Below are positions 55,613 to 63,784 of a DNA stretch of 64,000 nucleotides, one piece after another. The notes under the pieces were generated by a model. It was not told the origin of the DNA, searched no databases, and saw nothing but the letters and a program-made list of their open reading frames with translations. The stretch's first letter is position 1. Each line of letters starts with the position of its first letter. The position numbers were made by a program, and so were the translations under genes. The DNA is from Dehalobacter sp. (GTDB lineage Bacteria > Bacillota > Desulfitobacteriia > Desulfitobacteriales > Syntrophobotulaceae): the NCBI GenBank assembly GCA_023667845.1, contig JAMPIU010000053.1, positions 1-64,000 of the forward strand, in the 5' to 3' direction.

Positions 55613-57406
55613 TCAAAAACCTGTATTCTGCAGATATTCCTGTTGAAAAGCAGGATTTGCCGCCAGGTCAAAATGGGTTACCTTTGCCAATAATATCAAA
55701 GTATTCATCCGTATATTTCTGGACAGTAGAAAATTCAATGCTCCGGCTCCTGCCGCATTGCCTATGGACCGGATGGGTACATTCGAAAAATCGGGAAACA
55801 GACCGAGTACCTGAGCACTTGGAGCGTCAATATAGTTGCCGAAGGCCCCGGCAATCAGAATTTCCTCGAGATCTTCTCCTTTCAGCCCATATTCTTTCAT
55901 TAATAGCATACATCCTGTATAAATGGCGCTTTTGGCTAGCTGTACAGCACGAATATCCTTTTGGCTGATGTAAATTCGGTCGTTATCACCGGACTGTCCC
56001 TCATCCATCAGGTAGAAAACGCTGACCCCGTCAATTTTTGCCAGATAATCAGCAAATCTTTGATTTTCCGGCCGGCAAATTTTTAAATATTTGTCGGGAG
56101 GCAGCAGTCTGCCTTCTTTACTGATCAGCTCGGCTTTCAACATTTCAGCAACTGCATCAACGATACCGGAGCCACAAATCCCTTTGGGCTGTTCTCCGCC
56201 AATCACTTTTAATTTAATTTTACCTTCCGACAGTTTTACCCGTTCGATGGCTCCGTTTGTTCCACGCATTCCAAAGCGGATCGTTGCTCCTTCGAGGGCC
56301 GGTCCGGCAGCAGTTGAAGTGGCTAGCCACTTCTTCTCGTTCCCCAATAAAATTTCGCCGTTTGTTCCAAGATCAATAATCAATCTGTTCCCTTGACGTT
56401 CCCCTTCAGGCAAAGCCAGTAGGACAGCCAAAGTGTCCGCTCCGACGAAGCCCCCGATCAAAGGTAAAAAATCAATAATGGCATTGGGATGAATGTTAAG
56501 GCTCAACTCCCGTGCTGTTGTTAACACTTCACTTAAAATCGTATTGGTGTAAGGCGTCCTGCCAAGAGATCCAGGATACAAACCTAAAAAGAGGTGCTGC
56601 ATGGCACTGTTGCCGCAAATCACCATCGTATAGATATTTTCAGCGCTGATCTGGTTTTGCTGTATCGCTTCCAGAATCAGGGTGTTAATGGTCTCTACTA
56701 CTTTACGCTGAAGAATTTTTAGCCCTTCAGGATTATTTATCGCCGCCATAATGCGGGATATAACATCCGCACCTTCCGTAATCTGACCGTTTAAGCCGGA
56801 ATATACCCCTACTTTTTTGCCGCTATTAAGGTCATATAAGTAGGCCACAACTGAGGTACTCCCAAGGTCAACGGCAAATCCATAATTGCTGGCTGAGGTG
56901 TCGCCCTGCTCAATATCAAGCAGCTGTTCGTCTCTTAAGACCAAAGTAATGCCTGTCATTTCCTGTTTCTGCATCAGCAGTGATAATTTTTGCAGAAGGC
57001 ATAAAGCTGGCGTATTAATCCGGAATGGAACCGTGGCTTGAATATGTTCCCAGTCCCCGTAATAGAACGGAGTTCTTAGAAACTTCTTATCGATAAAGAT
57101 CTTTTTAACTGGCGGATCGATGTTTAGCTCTGTTTCAATACGATCTGTTAAAATTGAGGCTTCATGTTTATAGTCTTCATATTTAAGATAAACGATCAAG
57201 CCGTCGCTTACTGGTTCCTGACACGCCAATACTTCCTGCCGTATGCCGTCCCTTTCTATTTCAACTGTGCATTTTTTACATGTACCTTTTCCTCCGCATA
57301 CAAGATCAAGTGGATATCCAAGGCCTGAACAGGCAGCAGCGACCGTGTCATTCTCCTGGCATAAGATTTCTTTATTCTGGCTTGGAAATAGAACTTTTTT
57401 CATCAT
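55613..57406 (-). CDS. Corrinoid-enzyme reductive activator (2Fe-2S ferredoxin plus ASKHA domain)
   Basis: ATP-dependent activator of the RACE/RamA-AcsV kind, which re-reduces cob(II)alamin in corrinoid methyl-transfer proteins. The 597-residue product has an N-terminal [2Fe-2S] domain (C-x5-C-x2-C: DLVCGGKGTCKKC, plus ACQEP), then a linker. The C-terminal DUF4445 ASKHA domain (about 175-590) has YGFAVDLGSTSVVAYLYDL, LIIDLGTNGEILLG and GICGSGIVDAVAEML. The start is ATG 57406 after AAAGGAA. It lies upstream of the GntR/UTRA gene and divergent from the metF-metV gene, so the partner is likely the acetyl-CoA-pathway corrinoid protein; an O-demethylase partner is also possible. Confidence 0.87.
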   Translation of the reverse strand: MMKKVLFPSQNKEILCQENDTVAAACSGLGYPLDLVCGGKGTCKKCTVEIERDGIRQEVLACQEPVSDGLIVYLKYEDYKHEASILTDRIETELNIDPPVKKIFIDKKFLRTPFYYGDWEHIQATVPFRINTPALCLLQKLSLLMQKQEMTGITLVLRDEQLLDIEQGDTSASNYGFAVDLGSTSVVAYLYDLNSGKKVGVYSGLNGQITEGADVISRIMAAINNPEGLKILQRKVVETINTLILEAIQQNQISAENIYTMVICGNSAMQHLFLGLYPGSLGRTPYTNTILSEVLTTARELSLNIHPNAIIDFLPLIGGFVGADTLAVLLALPEGERQGNRLIIDLGTNGEILLGNEKKWLATSTAAGPALEGATIRFGMRGTNGAIERVKLSEGKIKLKVIGGEQPKGICGSGIVDAVAEMLKAELISKEGRLLPPDKYLKICRPENQRFADYLAKIDGVSVFYLMDEGQSGDNDRIYISQKDIRAVQLAKSAIYTGCMLLMKEYGLKGEDLEEILIAGAFGNYIDAPSAQVLGLFPDFSNVPIRSIGNAAGAGALNFLLSRNIRMNTLILLAKVTHFDLAANPAFQQEYLQNTGF

Positions 57407-57492
57407 ATTGTTTTCCTTTCTGTTATAATAAAACCTGCCATTTTCAGCGAAGGACAACCGTCTTTTTCCAAAAAAACATTCTAACATATCAT

Positions 57493-57750: not shown

Positions 57751-59313
57751 ATGGAGAACGCTTTTCGTAAAGCAATACAGGACAACAATGAGTTTATTGT
57801 AACATGGGAACTCGTACCCGGCCGCGGCTCTAAAGAAGTTTCTCAGGAAAAAGCGCTTCAATTGGCGGAGCAGACTGCTAAAGGGAAAAAGATCCATGCT
57901 GTTAGTCTGACTGACAACCCGGGTGGAAGTGTCGGCATTAATCCTGAGGGCATTGGCAGGGAAATCAAAAGTCTGGGCATCGATGCAATTATTCACGTTG
58001 CCTGCAAGGACAAAAACCGCACACAACTGGAAAGCCAGCTTTTTTCCCTGGAACGTTCGGGACTCCATAACTTACTGGTACTGACCGGCGACTATGATCC
58101 AGGTAATTTCTTCGGACGGCCCAAACCGGTTTTTGACCTTGATTCCACTCAGCTCTTGGCCTTTATCACCAAGATGAATGACGGGTTGGAACTTCCCACA
58201 GTTAGAGGTGTCAATAAACTTCAGCCAACCCATCTGTTTGCGGGTGCTGCTGTTTCACCTTTTAAAGCCACCGAAGCCGAGCAGATGCTCCAGTACACCA
58301 AGCTCAAAAAGAAGATCGAGAATGGTGCTCAGTTCATTATACCCCAAGTTGGCTACGATGTCAGAAAGTACCACGAACTCTATCAATTTGTGAAGCACAA
58401 TAACCTGCCCGGGTGTCTGATGGGAAATATTTACCTGCTGACTTATGGTGCTGCCAAAGCGATGAGTATGAATAAAGTCCCCGGATGTGTTGTTACGGAC
58501 AAGCTTGTTGCTGAACTGGAACAGGAAAAACAAAGCAGCGACAAGGGTGTTGCCGCCATGCTCGATAGGGCAGCGAAACTCTTTGCTATCCTGAAAGGTA
58601 TGGGCTACAAAGGCGTTCATCTCGGCGGGCATAATACGACGTATGAACAAGTTGAATATATTATTGACCGTGGAAACGAATTGACCGCCAACTGGCAGGA
58701 TTATATTCGGGAGTTTGACTATCCTCAAAAAAACGGTTTCTATGTTTACGCCAAAGATGAAAAGACCGGCTTGAATACTGCTCAAAAATCCAATGACTAC
58801 AACAATTATGAGAAGAGCTTTGATTTGAATTATAAGATGTCTAGAGTTGTTCACAAGATGATGTTTGAACCTAACAAAGGAATGTTCGGCTTTATGCGCG
58901 GATTTTGTCATGCCATAAAGGATTCTGCGCTGGAAAAACCTTTCCACGGCATTGAGCATCTCGCCAAATCCTGCATGTACAATTGCCAGGACTGCGGTGA
59001 CTGTGCGCTGATCGATGTAGCCTATGTCTGTCCAATGGGCAACTGTCCCAAGAACCAACGGAACGGCCCATGTGAAGGAAGCTACAACGGCTGGTGTGAA
59101 GTGTATCCGGACAAGCAAAAGTGCATCTGGGTCAAAGCCTATTACCGCTTAAAAGGCTATTCTGAGGAAGAAAAGCTGAATTCCTATCATGTGAGCCCTT
59201 ACAATTGGGAAAAACAGCATACTTCAGGCTGGATAAACTTTTTTGAAGGCCAGGACCACTCTGCGGAAAGACTTGGCATTAAACCTAGAACAAAGTCCAA
59301 AGAAAAAGAATAA
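57751..59313 (+). CDS. Methylenetetrahydrofolate reductase fused to MetV-type C-terminal domain
   Basis: Reduces methylene-THF to methyl-THF in the methyl branch of the Wood-Ljungdahl pathway. The 520-residue protein joins a MetF-like TIM barrel (about 1-300; Glu20 in TWELVPG and Asp114 in LTGD match the catalytic Glu and Asp of E. coli MetF) to a MetV/MTHFR_C-type domain (about 390-490) with nine cysteines at 408, 412, 415, 418, 427, 432, 441, 449 and 458, able to hold metal or Fe-S centres. In acetogens such as Acetobacterium MetF and MetV are separate; here they are one chain. The start at 57751 follows AAGGGGG. It is first in the C1 set. Confidence 0.88.
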   Translation: MENAFRKAIQDNNEFIVTWELVPGRGSKEVSQEKALQLAEQTAKGKKIHAVSLTDNPGGSVGINPEGIGREIKSLGIDAIIHVACKDKNRTQLESQLFSLERSGLHNLLVLTGDYDPGNFFGRPKPVFDLDSTQLLAFITKMNDGLELPTVRGVNKLQPTHLFAGAAVSPFKATEAEQMLQYTKLKKKIENGAQFIIPQVGYDVRKYHELYQFVKHNNLPGCLMGNIYLLTYGAAKAMSMNKVPGCVVTDKLVAELEQEKQSSDKGVAAMLDRAAKLFAILKGMGYKGVHLGGHNTTYEQVEYIIDRGNELTANWQDYIREFDYPQKNGFYVYAKDEKTGLNTAQKSNDYNNYEKSFDLNYKMSRVVHKMMFEPNKGMFGFMRGFCHAIKDSALEKPFHGIEHLAKSCMYNCQDCGDCALIDVAYVCPMGNCPKNQRNGPCEGSYNGWCEVYPDKQKCIWVKAYYRLKGYSEEEKLNSYHVSPYNWEKQHTSGWINFFEGQDHSAERLGIKPRTKSKEKE

Positions 59314-59410: not shown

Positions 59411-60316
59411 ATGGAAAAAATGTTTAAAACTCCTTCAGAGATTACTGAGGGATTTGTAGAATATGGAAAGAATAAAACGAATTCTTCTATATTGAAATTG
59501 CTGCTGTTGGCAATACTAGCGGGAGCCTTTATTGCCTTCGCGGCGGAAGGCTCTAATACTGCCATTCACACCATCACTTCTGTTGGCTTAGGCAAAGCAC
59601 TCGCTGGTGCCTTATTTGCCACAGGACTGATGATGGTGGTTATCACCGGAGCTGAATTATTCACCGGAAACACCCTGATTGTGGTATCTTGTATGGAAAA
59701 GGAATCAAGATGGCTAAAGATGCTGCGTAATTGGACGATTGTCTATATCGGGAACTTTATTGGTTCCATGCTTGTCGTCTTGTTTATCCTTTACTCCGGC
59801 CAGTTTGACTTTTCCTCAGGTCTACTCGGAGGGTTTACAATCAAAGTCGCCGCATATAAGACGGGCCTGACTTTCCCGAAAGCTTTCTTCATGGGAATCT
59901 TGTGTAACTGGCTGGTTTGTATGGCTGTTTGGATGGCGAATGCCGCCAAGGATATCACCGGTAAACTTCTTGCTATCTTTTTTCCGATCTGGCTGTTCAT
60001 TACTTCTGGTTTTGAACACTGTGTTGCCAATATGTATTACATTCCTGCCGGCATTCTTGCCAAAGCCAACCCGACCTGGGTGGCCCAGGCTGCAACGCTC
60101 GGTGTAACACCTGAAAAACTTGCTCACCTTAACTGGGGAACGTTTGTCGTGAATAACCTTATTCCTGTTACGCTCGGAAATATCGTTGGCGGAAGCATAT
60201 TTGTCGGACTTATTTACTGGCTGAGCTTCATGTACAAAAAGAAATCCACTACTGTTTTGGATGTAGACCATCTTGTTCAGAAAAAATTTGATAGTGCTTA
60301 CGTAAAATCTAAATAA
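59411..60316 (+). CDS. Formate/nitrite-family channel
   Basis: Membrane channel of the FNT family (FocA/FdhC/NirC); position before fhs points to formate. The 301 residues form six membrane segments. ILAGAFIAFAAEGSNTAI, GALFATGLMMVVITGAELFTGNTLIV with the family motif AELFTGN (about 77-83), LVCMAVWMAN, WLFITSGFEHCVANMYYIPAGIL with the FEHCVANM signature, and NNLIPVTLGNIVGGSIFVGLIYW are visible. AGGAG precedes the ATG. It lies 97 bases after the reductase gene and 42 before fhs. Confidence 0.93.
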   Translation: MEKMFKTPSEITEGFVEYGKNKTNSSILKLLLLAILAGAFIAFAAEGSNTAIHTITSVGLGKALAGALFATGLMMVVITGAELFTGNTLIVVSCMEKESRWLKMLRNWTIVYIGNFIGSMLVVLFILYSGQFDFSSGLLGGFTIKVAAYKTGLTFPKAFFMGILCNWLVCMAVWMANAAKDITGKLLAIFFPIWLFITSGFEHCVANMYYIPAGILAKANPTWVAQAATLGVTPEKLAHLNWGTFVVNNLIPVTLGNIVGGSIFVGLIYWLSFMYKKKSTTVLDVDHLVQKKFDSAYVKSK

Positions 60317-60358: not shown

Positions 60359-62035
60359 ATGGCTTTCAAAAGTGATATTGAAATCGCCCAGGAATCAACC
60401 ATGCTGCCTGTATTAGATGTAGCAAAAGAACTCGGAATCCCCGAGGATTATCTGGAATCCTATGGCAAATACAAAGCCAAGGTCGACTACAACTTATTAA
60501 ATCAAAAAGCGGACACACCGAATGGCAAACTGATTCTTGTTACTGCCATCAACCCGACTCCTGCCGGAGAAGGTAAAACTACGACATCCGTCGGTTTAGG
60601 AGATGCTCTCCATTATCTCGGCAAAAAAACTGTCATTGCACTACGCGAACCATCCTTAGGCCCTGTATTTGGTGTCAAAGGTGGCGCCGCTGGCGGCGGT
60701 TATGCTCAGGTCGTACCAATGGAAGATATCAACCTTCACTTCACAGGTGATTTTCATGCCATCGGTGCTGCCAACAACCTGATTGCAGCGATGCTCGACA
60801 ACCATATCCAACAAGGCAACGCGCTGGATATCGATGTCCGTAGAATTACTTGGAAAAGATGCATGGATATGAATGACCGCCAGCTCCGCTTCATTGTCAA
60901 CGGACTTGGCGGCAAAGCCAATGGCACTCCGAGAGAAGACGGCTTTGACATCACGGTTGCTTCTGAAATCATGGCGATCATGTGCCTATCCAGCGATATT
61001 GACGACTTCAAAGCAAGAGTTGAGAGAATCATTGTCGCCTACAACAGAAGCGGTGAACCCGTAACTGCCGGTCAACTGAAGTGTCAAGGTGCTGTTGGTG
61101 CCCTGATGAAAGATGCTTTAAAACCGAACCTTGTACAAACTCTTGAACATACACCAGCTTTCATTCACGGCGGACCGTTCGCGAACATTGCTCACGGCTG
61201 CAACAGTGTTATGGCGACCAAGATGGCTTTAAAACTTGGCGACTATGTTGTAACCGAAGCTGGATTCGGTGCTGACCTCGGCGCTGAGAAATTTATTGAC
61301 ATTAAATGTCGTTTAAGTGGCCTGCGTCCGGAAGCCGTTGTTATTGTTGCAACCGTTCGCGCGCTCAAATCCCATGGCGGCGTAGCCAAAGCTGATCTCA
61401 ACAAAGAAAACCTGGATGCCCTCAAAAAAGGCTTGCCGAACCTCTTAAAACACGTCGAAAACGTCACCATCAACTTTGGTCTGCCTGCCGTTGTTGCGAT
61501 CAACAAGTTCCCAACCGACAGCGAAGCTGAACTGGCAATGATTGAAGACGAGTGCAAGAAACTCGGCGTTAATGTAGCCCTTTCCGAAGTTTGGGAAAAA
61601 GGCGGCCCTGGTGGTGCGAAACTGGCTGAAGAAGTCCTTCGCATCATTGACAGCCCGAAAAACTTTAACTTTGCTTATGACATCAACATGGGCCTCAAAG
61701 ACAAGATTACCGCAATTGCCACCAAGATCTATGGTGCAGACGGTGTTGACTTCATTGGCAGCAGCTCCGCAGATATTGAGAATATCGAAAAAATCGGCTA
61801 TCGTGATGTTCCGGTCTGTATGGCGAAGACCCAGTATTCCTTGTCTGATGACCAGAAGAAACTGGGACGTCCATCAGGCTTCAGAATCTCGATCCGTGGC
61901 GTGAAGATTTCTGCTGGTGCAGGCTTTGCCGTTGCACTTACCGGAGACATCATGACCATGCCCGGCCTGCCGAAAGTACCGTCTGCTGAAAACATTGACG
62001 TAGACAGCACCGGTAAGATTTCCGGCTTATTCTAA
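60359..62035 (+). CDS. fhs: Formate--tetrahydrofolate ligase
   Basis: Joins formate to THF with ATP, the entry of the methyl branch. The 558 residues are full length: [21 protein letters not shown], the nucleotide loop [19 protein letters not shown] (about 64-82), [35 protein letters not shown] in parts (about 97-133), [24 protein letters not shown] and the C-terminal [20 protein letters not shown]. Good ribosome binding site AGGGGGAA. Downstream of the formate channel; followed by a 253-base gap before fchA. Confidence 0.98.
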
Positions 62036-62297
62036 GATAAAGTTTAATATTGTTTCCAATAAGAATGAGATGGCAGCTTCGTACTACCATCTCATTCTAT
62101 AAATGCTCTTAATCTTTATTCACTGACGTTGTCTATGTATTACACAGACTAGTTTCTAGAACTAGATACCAGAATTTAAGCTTTGAGTATTTTGTAGAAT
62201 ACTTGTCTTAAGATGACATGACTATGGGATCGCTATATATTGGTTGCTCACGCAATAATTTAGTAGCAAAAAAAATTAAGAACAGGAGATGAATATT
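62036..62297 (+). promoter_or_regulatory. fhs-fchA intergenic region with inverted repeats
   Basis: Holds a strong inverted repeat AGAATGAGATGG (62062-62073) with CCATCTCATTCT (62087-62098). Without a T-tract it is more likely an mRNA-stabilising or processing hairpin than a full terminator. CTAGTT-TCT-AGAACTAG and AGTATT...AATACT follow. No confident promoter for fchA; transcription may continue from fhs. Confidence 0.5.
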
Positions 62298-62930
62298 ATG
62301 TTGAAAAAGAGCTGTATTGAATTTGTAAACGCTCTGTCTTCCAAAGAGCCGATTCCTGGCGGCGGCGGTGCTTCTGCTTATGTTGGCTCCATCGGCATGG
62401 CGCTGGGTGTCATGGTAGGAAGTTTAACTGTCGGCAAGAAGAAATATGCTGATGTTGAAGCCGATGTACTCGTCCTGATGGAAAAAGGCCAGAAGATCAT
62501 TGAAAAACTGCAGGTTCTGGTCAAAGAAGATGCTGATGCTTTCTATCCGCTTTCCCAGGCTTACGGACTGCCTAAAAATACTGAAGAAGAAATCCGGGCC
62601 AAAGAAGAAACCTTGCAGGCCGCTTTGGTTAAAGCAACACTTGTACCGCTCGATATTGCCAGATGCTGCGCTGACGGCATCAATCTTCAGGAAGAATTCG
62701 CTCAGAAAGGCACCCGTATTGCGATTAGCGACGTCGGTGTCGGCGTAACCTTCCTGAAAGCTGCGCTCGAAGGTGCCAAACTGAATGTCTTAATCAACAC
62801 CCAGATCATGAAAGATCAGGTTCTAAAACAGAAAATTGAGACTGAACTGAATGAACTTGTCACCACATATACCGCCAAAGCCGACCGCATCTTTGCGGAA
62901 GTTCAGAATGCAATCACAGGAGGTAAATAA
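62298..62930 (+). CDS. fchA: Methenyltetrahydrofolate cyclohydrolase (FTCD_C family)
   Basis: Cyclises formyl-THF to methenyl-THF. The 210-residue protein is the FTCD C-terminal helical family: CIEFVNALSSKEPIPGGGGASAYVGSIGMALGVMVGSLTVGKKKY in segments (residues 5-50), and a C-terminal helix bundle. The ATG at 62298 has AGGAGA at 8-9 bases; the ATG three codons before is too close. It lies 5 bases from folD. As the FolD next door lacks cyclohydrolase residues, this enzyme probably carries the step alone. Confidence 0.92.
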   Translation: MLKKSCIEFVNALSSKEPIPGGGGASAYVGSIGMALGVMVGSLTVGKKKYADVEADVLVLMEKGQKIIEKLQVLVKEDADAFYPLSQAYGLPKNTEEEIRAKEETLQAALVKATLVPLDIARCCADGINLQEEFAQKGTRIAISDVGVGVTFLKAALEGAKLNVLINTQIMKDQVLKQKIETELNELVTTYTAKADRIFAEVQNAITGGK

Positions 62931-62935
62931 GCAGC

Positions 62936-63784
62936 ATGACTCAGATTCTTAACGCTAAACCCGTTGTTCAGGCCATGAAAGAAAACCTCCAGCAGGAAGT
63001 TGCGGCTTTAAAAGCTGAAGGCATCAACCCGACCTTAGGCATCATTCGCGTCGGCAGCCGTCCGGACGACGTTTACTATGAAAACAACATTATTAAAAAC
63101 TGCGATAATCTTGGCATTGCAACCAAGACCTATCCTTTGGACTTAAATATCAGCATGGAAGAATTCACAAAAGTCATGACGGGGGTCAACAATGACAGTA
63201 CCGTTCATGGCATCATGCTGTTCCGTCCGCTACCGAAACAGCTGGACGAAGAAGTCATCAAGCACCTGATCTCGGCAGATAAAGACATTGACTGCATGAA
63301 TCCGCTGAATCTGGCCAAAGTATTTGAAGGCGATATGAGCGGACTCCTGCCCTGCACGCCCGCAGCATGTATGGAAACCTTGAGCCATTACGGCTACAAT
63401 CTTAGCGGCGCGAATGTAGTGGTCATGGGAAGAAGCCTCGTTGTCGGCAAACCGCTGGCCATGATGCTCTTAAAAGAAAATGCGACCGTGACGATGTGCC
63501 ATTCCAAGACCAAAGATATGGCCGGAATTGCGAAGAAAGCGGACATCATCATTGCTGCGATGGGCAGAGCCAAAATGATCGATGACAAATACGTATCCGA
63601 AAACACCGTTGTCATCGACGTTGGCATCAACGATGCCGGAGACGGCAAGATGTGCGGGGATGTCGATTATGATGCAGTCGTGGACAAAGTCAGTGCGATC
63701 ACCCCTGTACCGGGCGGCGTAGGTTCGATTACCACCGCGATTTTGATGAAAAACTGTCTGCGGGCAGCCAGAAAAAAACACTGA
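62936..63784 (+). CDS. folD: FolD-type methylenetetrahydrofolate dehydrogenase, cyclohydrolase residues changed
   Basis: Interconverts methenyl- and methylene-THF with a pyridine nucleotide. The 282 residues follow FolD: a Rossmann segment VVVMGRSLVVGKPLAMMLL (about 160-178), GDVDYDAV, ITPVPGGVGSIT. In the catalytic cleft, ungapped alignment to E. coli FolD gives Ile52 at the catalytic Lys and Phe96 at the Gln of GILVQLPLP, while the Tyr (48), Lys54 and Asp119 remain. In human and other FolD enzymes these Lys and Gln are required for cyclohydrolase but not dehydrogenase activity, so this copy is probably monofunctional. It follows fchA by 5 bases. Confidence 0.92.
   Translation: MTQILNAKPVVQAMKENLQQEVAALKAEGINPTLGIIRVGSRPDDVYYENNIIKNCDNLGIATKTYPLDLNISMEEFTKVMTGVNNDSTVHGIMLFRPLPKQLDEEVIKHLISADKDIDCMNPLNLAKVFEGDMSGLLPCTPAACMETLSHYGYNLSGANVVVMGRSLVVGKPLAMMLLKENATVTMCHSKTKDMAGIAKKADIIIAAMGRAKMIDDKYVSENTVVIDVGINDAGDGKMCGDVDYDAVVDKVSAITPVPGGVGSITTAILMKNCLRAARKKH

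Follow-up and report, generated by a model that had tools for sequence, protein, structure and literature searches.

We find that a FolD protein encoded in the genome of Dehalobacter sp. carries hydrophobic residues in place of both the catalytic Lys and the catalytic Gln of bifunctional FolDs, that its gene adjoins fchA in a Wood–Ljungdahl gene cluster, and that losses of this kind are tied to fchA across Bacillota genomes. The most probable reading of these sequences (about 0.87) is that the protein is a monofunctional 5,10-methylene-THF dehydrogenase of the Wood–Ljungdahl methyl branch, with FchA supplying the cyclohydrolase. The stretch analysed, hereafter the window, comprises 64,000 nucleotides (contig JAMPIU010000053.1, positions 1 to 64,000 of the forward strand).

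Active-site residues of the variant FolD

The variant folD gene (62936..63784, + strand) is a full-length open reading frame with an ATG start. Its 282–amino acid product, a predicted 5,10-methylene-THF dehydrogenase whose modeled structure resembles E. coli FolD, exceeds the gathering cut-offs for both FolD domains in a profile search (PF00763, 103.1 bits; PF02882, 204.4 bits). An AlphaFold model built from 24 sequences has the ordinary FolD fold (mean pLDDT 94.9) and matches most solved FolD/MTHFD structures over its full length (Z 36 to 40). None of the NCBIfam cut-offs for bifunctional FolD was reached among the 25 matches listed, the best being PRK14172 (289.8 bits versus a cut-off of 392).

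Alignment of the window FolD with the C. jejuni and human proteins is ungapped across YxxxK and GILVQLPLP. Thus, Ile52 (codon ATT, 63089..63091, + strand) occupies the position of the catalytic Lys, and Phe96 (codon TTC, 63221..63223, + strand) that of the catalytic Gln, in a motif that reads GIMLFRPLP. Both substitutions had been proposed in the first-pass annotation, as had the retention of Tyr48 and Asp119, and the residue read-out (Tyr48, Ile52, Lys54, Phe96, and Asp119) agrees on every count: two hallmarks of bifunctional FolDs are missing, while the substrate-binding and nucleotide-binding residues are kept. Sequencing error was ruled out as the source of Ile52 and Phe96, since the FolDs of four congeners (83 to 99% identity) carry the same pairing of Ile or Val with Phe. 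All four congeners lack a canonical FolD, and the variant is their only one. A cofactor switch was also rejected, as residues 165–167 and 189–192 match those of ordinary FolDs. Of the purposes earlier suggested for a split, cofactor use is not supported, given these usual nucleotide-binding residues, and neither is separate control of flux.

Comparison across FolD classes reveals further changes around the active site. Position 45, equivalent to human Ser49, is Asp in the window FolD (codon GAC, 63068..63070, + strand), whereas Ser is found in 99% of canonical FolDs and in 100% of those in which Gln is replaced by Glu. Position 97, equivalent to human Leu101, is Arg (codon CGT, 63224..63226, + strand); Leu stands here in 87% of canonical FolDs and Arg in 69% of FolDs with both residues hydrophobic, a class in which Arg38 occurs in 83%. 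The human Ser49 and Leu101 positions are active-site members according to the literature. In addition, Thr267 is found where the human enzyme has Val280, a residue lining the Lys pocket. Because Asp45, Arg97, and Thr267 differ too, the pocket is reshaped and not simply short of two residues.

Published mutants bear on the premise, put forward in the first-pass annotation, that Lys and Gln are needed for the cyclohydrolase but not for the dehydrogenase activity of the human and yeast enzymes. The E. coli K54N enzyme fits it, having undetectable cyclohydrolase and ~19% dehydrogenase activity; Q98H does not, as dehydrogenase falls to ~8% and cyclohydrolase to ~1% (PMC5688156), and so Gln matters to both reactions. 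In Bombyx MTHFD, moreover, K53A and Q97A retained cyclohydrolase (PMC6443876), a result possibly affected by spontaneous substrate hydrolysis. By analogy, then, the E. coli mutants support a loss of cyclohydrolase activity, and the Bombyx mutants dissent. Because E. coli Q98H loses most of its dehydrogenase activity, natural Gln-lacking FolDs must compensate, and dehydrogenase activity in the window FolD would rest on compensating changes.

The fchA–folD gene cluster

Directly upstream lies fchA (62289..62930, + strand), which encodes a predicted methenyl-THF cyclohydrolase of the FTCD_C family (PF04961, 212.6 bits) and is the only PF04961 gene in the genome. The sequence places 5 bases (62931..62935, + strand) between its stop and the start of folD, the distance given in the first-pass annotation, and a GGAGG ribosome-binding-like site for folD sits within the 3' end of fchA. 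The closest solved structure to the window FchA is 7vg4, a methenyltetrahydrofolate cyclohydrolase (E = 4e-39). The window protein's full-length match to the NCBIfam FchA equivalog scores 190.9 bits, under the 275-bit cut-off; it is thus named FchA here on the basis of similarity and context.

The cluster starts with a methylene-THF reductase carrying a C-terminal PF12225 domain (57751..59313, + strand; PF02219 and PF12225), a MetF-MetV-like fusion in a single protein. This is followed by a FocA-like formate/nitrite channel (59411..60316, + strand; PF01226, with TIGR00790 above cut-off) and by fhs, encoding formate-THF ligase (60359..62035, + strand; NF010030, 931 bits, above cut-off). Downstream of folD, and mostly past the window, are genes for a pterin-binding methyltransferase-like protein, an amidohydrolase, CO dehydrogenase, a MinD/CooC-like ATPase, two CdhD-type (corrinoid protein) subunits, a second pterin-binding methyltransferase, acetyl-CoA synthase, and a RACo protein; those for CO dehydrogenase, corrinoid protein, methyltransferase, and acsB fall within 14 kb of folD. 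Thus, fchA and folD belong to a complete Wood–Ljungdahl cluster, and the organism is, judged by gene content, an acetogen. A second RACo-type corrinoid activator (55613-57487, − strand), with RACo middle and C-terminal domains, is divergent from the metF-like gene and is additional to the RACo beside acsB.

In the mechanism that we favor, Fhs would convert formate to 10-formyl-THF, from which FchA would form 5,10-methenyl-THF. FolD, probably co-translated with FchA, would then use NAD(P)H to yield methylene-THF, and the MetF-like protein would supply methyl-THF for acetyl-CoA synthase. This direction of flux, together with the loss of cyclohydrolase and the retention of dehydrogenase activity, is what we infer from residues and gene content. 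FolD and FchA might also form a physical pair that passes on methenyl-THF, with the FolD pocket (Asp45, Ile52, Phe96, Arg97, and Thr267) tuned for reduction, although we think this unlikely. If they did, the two-residue signature would mark coupled split enzymes in at least 31 sampled Bacillota families, where they are now annotated as bifunctional.

Residue loss and fchA across Bacillota

We read FolD positions 52 and 96 in each sequence from an evenly drawn sample of 179 Bacillota genomes, classed the FolDs among those of the Asp119 type, and scored fchA as present where PF04961 reached at least 100 bits. All 59 genomes that have only Lys- or Gln-lacking Asp119-type FolDs carry PF04961, in contrast to 31 of the 111 that have a canonical FolD and no variant (Fisher P = 5e-23, kinship ignored); some of these 31 may be non-FchA, because PF04961 also covers formimino-THF cyclodeaminase. 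A survey of relatives had been proposed in the first-pass annotation as a check on its split of the bifunctional step. Such a split is likely on these data, in that residue loss tracks fchA.

The losses are of two main types, together spanning 31 families. Either both residues are hydrophobic, as in the window (Ile, Ala, Leu, Val, or Met with Phe, Met, or Leu; 17 families), or Lys is kept and Gln is replaced by Glu (14 families). Rarer Asp119-type forms (Ile/Gln, Gln/Gln, and Gln/His) were found only with fchA. Among named GTDB genomes, PF04961 is present in 33 of 35 with a variant FolD versus 1 of 6 with a canonical one, and the two variant genomes without it are metagenome-assembled, with folD on contigs of 5 to 6.5 kb. 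The genes are also neighbors. In a count to which close relatives of the window contribute, no more than 650 bases separate folD from fchA for 34 of the 44 hydrophobic-type genes and for 41 of the 50 genes of the Gln-to-Glu type, versus 0 of 118 canonical genes.

Some FolDs in the survey deserve separate description. The Gln-to-Glu FolDs (L061–L076; also L173 and L195) have fchA nearby and have Thr267, and mostly Ser264, in common with the window class. Two related genomes hold both split types together, one Ile/Phe and one Lys/Glu (L052/L282 in G032; L053/L283 in G031). There are also FolD-like paralogs with KDVEG in place of KDVDG, often without the catalytic Lys and several as tandem pairs (L220/L245, L228/L231, L218/L230, L222/L249, L251, L255, and L257; genomes G065, G105, G170, G194, G133, G141, and G092). 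These are possibly another dehydrogenase-only or heteromeric form.

On a FolD tree built with the trait columns removed, 4 changes are needed for canonical versus lost states and 6 for three states. Of the hydrophobic FolDs, one small group is nested inside the Gln-to-Glu clade and another branches from among the canonical FolDs. The Lys/Gln loss thus arose more than once, but only a small number of times; the genome counts therefore overstate the independent events, and the canonical/lost contrast has few phylogenetically independent pairs.

We considered whether the variant is a marker of acetogens that serves acetogenesis as such, and is no companion of FchA. Indeed, acsB is enriched among variant genomes, being found in 20 of 30 with the hydrophobic type and 14 of 28 with the Gln-to-Glu type, versus 20 of 111 with canonical FolD. 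It is, however, neither necessary nor sufficient: 24 variant genomes lack acsB and 20 acsB genomes have only canonical FolD, whereas fchA occurs in every variant genome of the 179-genome sample. We rejected acetogenesis as the driver, and this explanation is highly improbable. Possession of fhs does not discriminate, because 167 of the 179 genomes have it, and it was likewise rejected. It is also very unlikely, although slightly less so, that the window FolD is still bifunctional, with Arg97, Arg38, or Lys54 replacing the lost Lys in proton transfer and FchA as an auxiliary. The frequent gain of Arg97 and Arg38 in the hydrophobic class speaks for such a replacement, as does the cyclohydrolase activity kept by Bombyx K53A, but whole sub-groups without Lys and Gln have Ala, Ser, Met, or Leu in place of Arg97. 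Arg is, moreover, too basic to act as an unprotonated amine. That is the role proposed for human Lys56 (PMC3368264), for which Arg is thus unfit. Continued bifunctionality would also leave the tie between FolD loss and fchA unexplained.

The search for a second folD, also advised in the first-pass annotation, found one: a canonical gene, with Lys and Gln, on a 20-kb contig of the same assembly (G000:C134, L278, 1-20000). Its presence counts against reading the window FolD and FchA as a monofunctional pair, and raises the alternative that the variant is decaying or repurposed while the canonical FolD does the housekeeping. This is the least probable of the explanations considered, given that the variant is the sole FolD of the four congeners, is well conserved within the genus, and is located in the acetogenesis cluster. 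Contig C134 has nothing colinear in those congeners and encodes one serine-recombinase-like and one integrase-like protein (read from translations), and is therefore either a contaminant or an island specific to this strain. The contamination estimate for the assembly is 3.73%. The G+C content of C134 equals that of the window (0.443), and in tetranucleotide composition it correlates with the window at 0.90, versus 0.97 to 0.98 for overlapping or neighboring stretches of the window's own contig and 0.91 to 0.93 for congener regions. Besides folD, it carries isocitrate/isopropylmalate dehydrogenase-like and alcohol and aldehyde dehydrogenase-like genes. Whichever C134 is, the genus runs on the variant FolD.

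Consequences and known systems

Our results offer a simple rule, that a FolD without Lys or without Gln calls for a search for fchA, and it proved right for all 59 of the sampled genomes with only such FolDs. Automatic annotation labels such FolDs "bifunctional"; as a result, metabolic models of acetogens and clostridia credit FolD with a step that it probably cannot perform and count FchA as redundant. The rule also predicts which FolDs would by nature be insensitive to carolacton: binding of this natural product needs the Lys, and E. coli FolD loses its sensitivity with the K54N change (PMC5688156).

The window FolD matches E. coli FolD (1b0a) over the full length of the fold (281 residues, Z 38.0, rmsd 1.6) and conserves the equivalents of its Tyr50 and Asp121; the E. 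coli enzyme is bifunctional and, unlike the window protein, possesses both catalytic residues, Lys54 and Gln98. The NAD-dependent yeast MTD1 (1edz), described as monofunctional, shares the fold (Z 28.8) and also lacks cyclohydrolase activity, but is only 22% identical to the window FolD. Because the latter is far closer to bifunctional FolDs, its loss is separate from that of MTD1.

The division of dehydrogenase and cyclohydrolase is not new, acetogen and clostridial enzymes having been described as separate proteins decades ago. The FolD of Clostridium perfringens is reportedly a dehydrogenase only, with cyclohydrolase activity from a separate FchA (said to be the work of Aluri et al. 2016); the resemblance to the window reportedly extends to the presence of Fhs. 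A cyclohydrolase of Clostridium formicoaceticum was reportedly described by Clark and Ljungdahl in 1982. A later account (PMC6443876) terms monofunctional the Peptostreptococcus productus enzyme, an NADP-dependent dehydrogenase (Wohlfarth 1991). As in the window, these acetogens place the two steps on separate proteins; in contrast, that work is biochemistry in other organisms, without a residue-level basis. A search of the open-access literature found no paper tying Lys/Gln loss to fchA. To these systems our analysis adds that the split appears to be widespread and recognizable from two residues.
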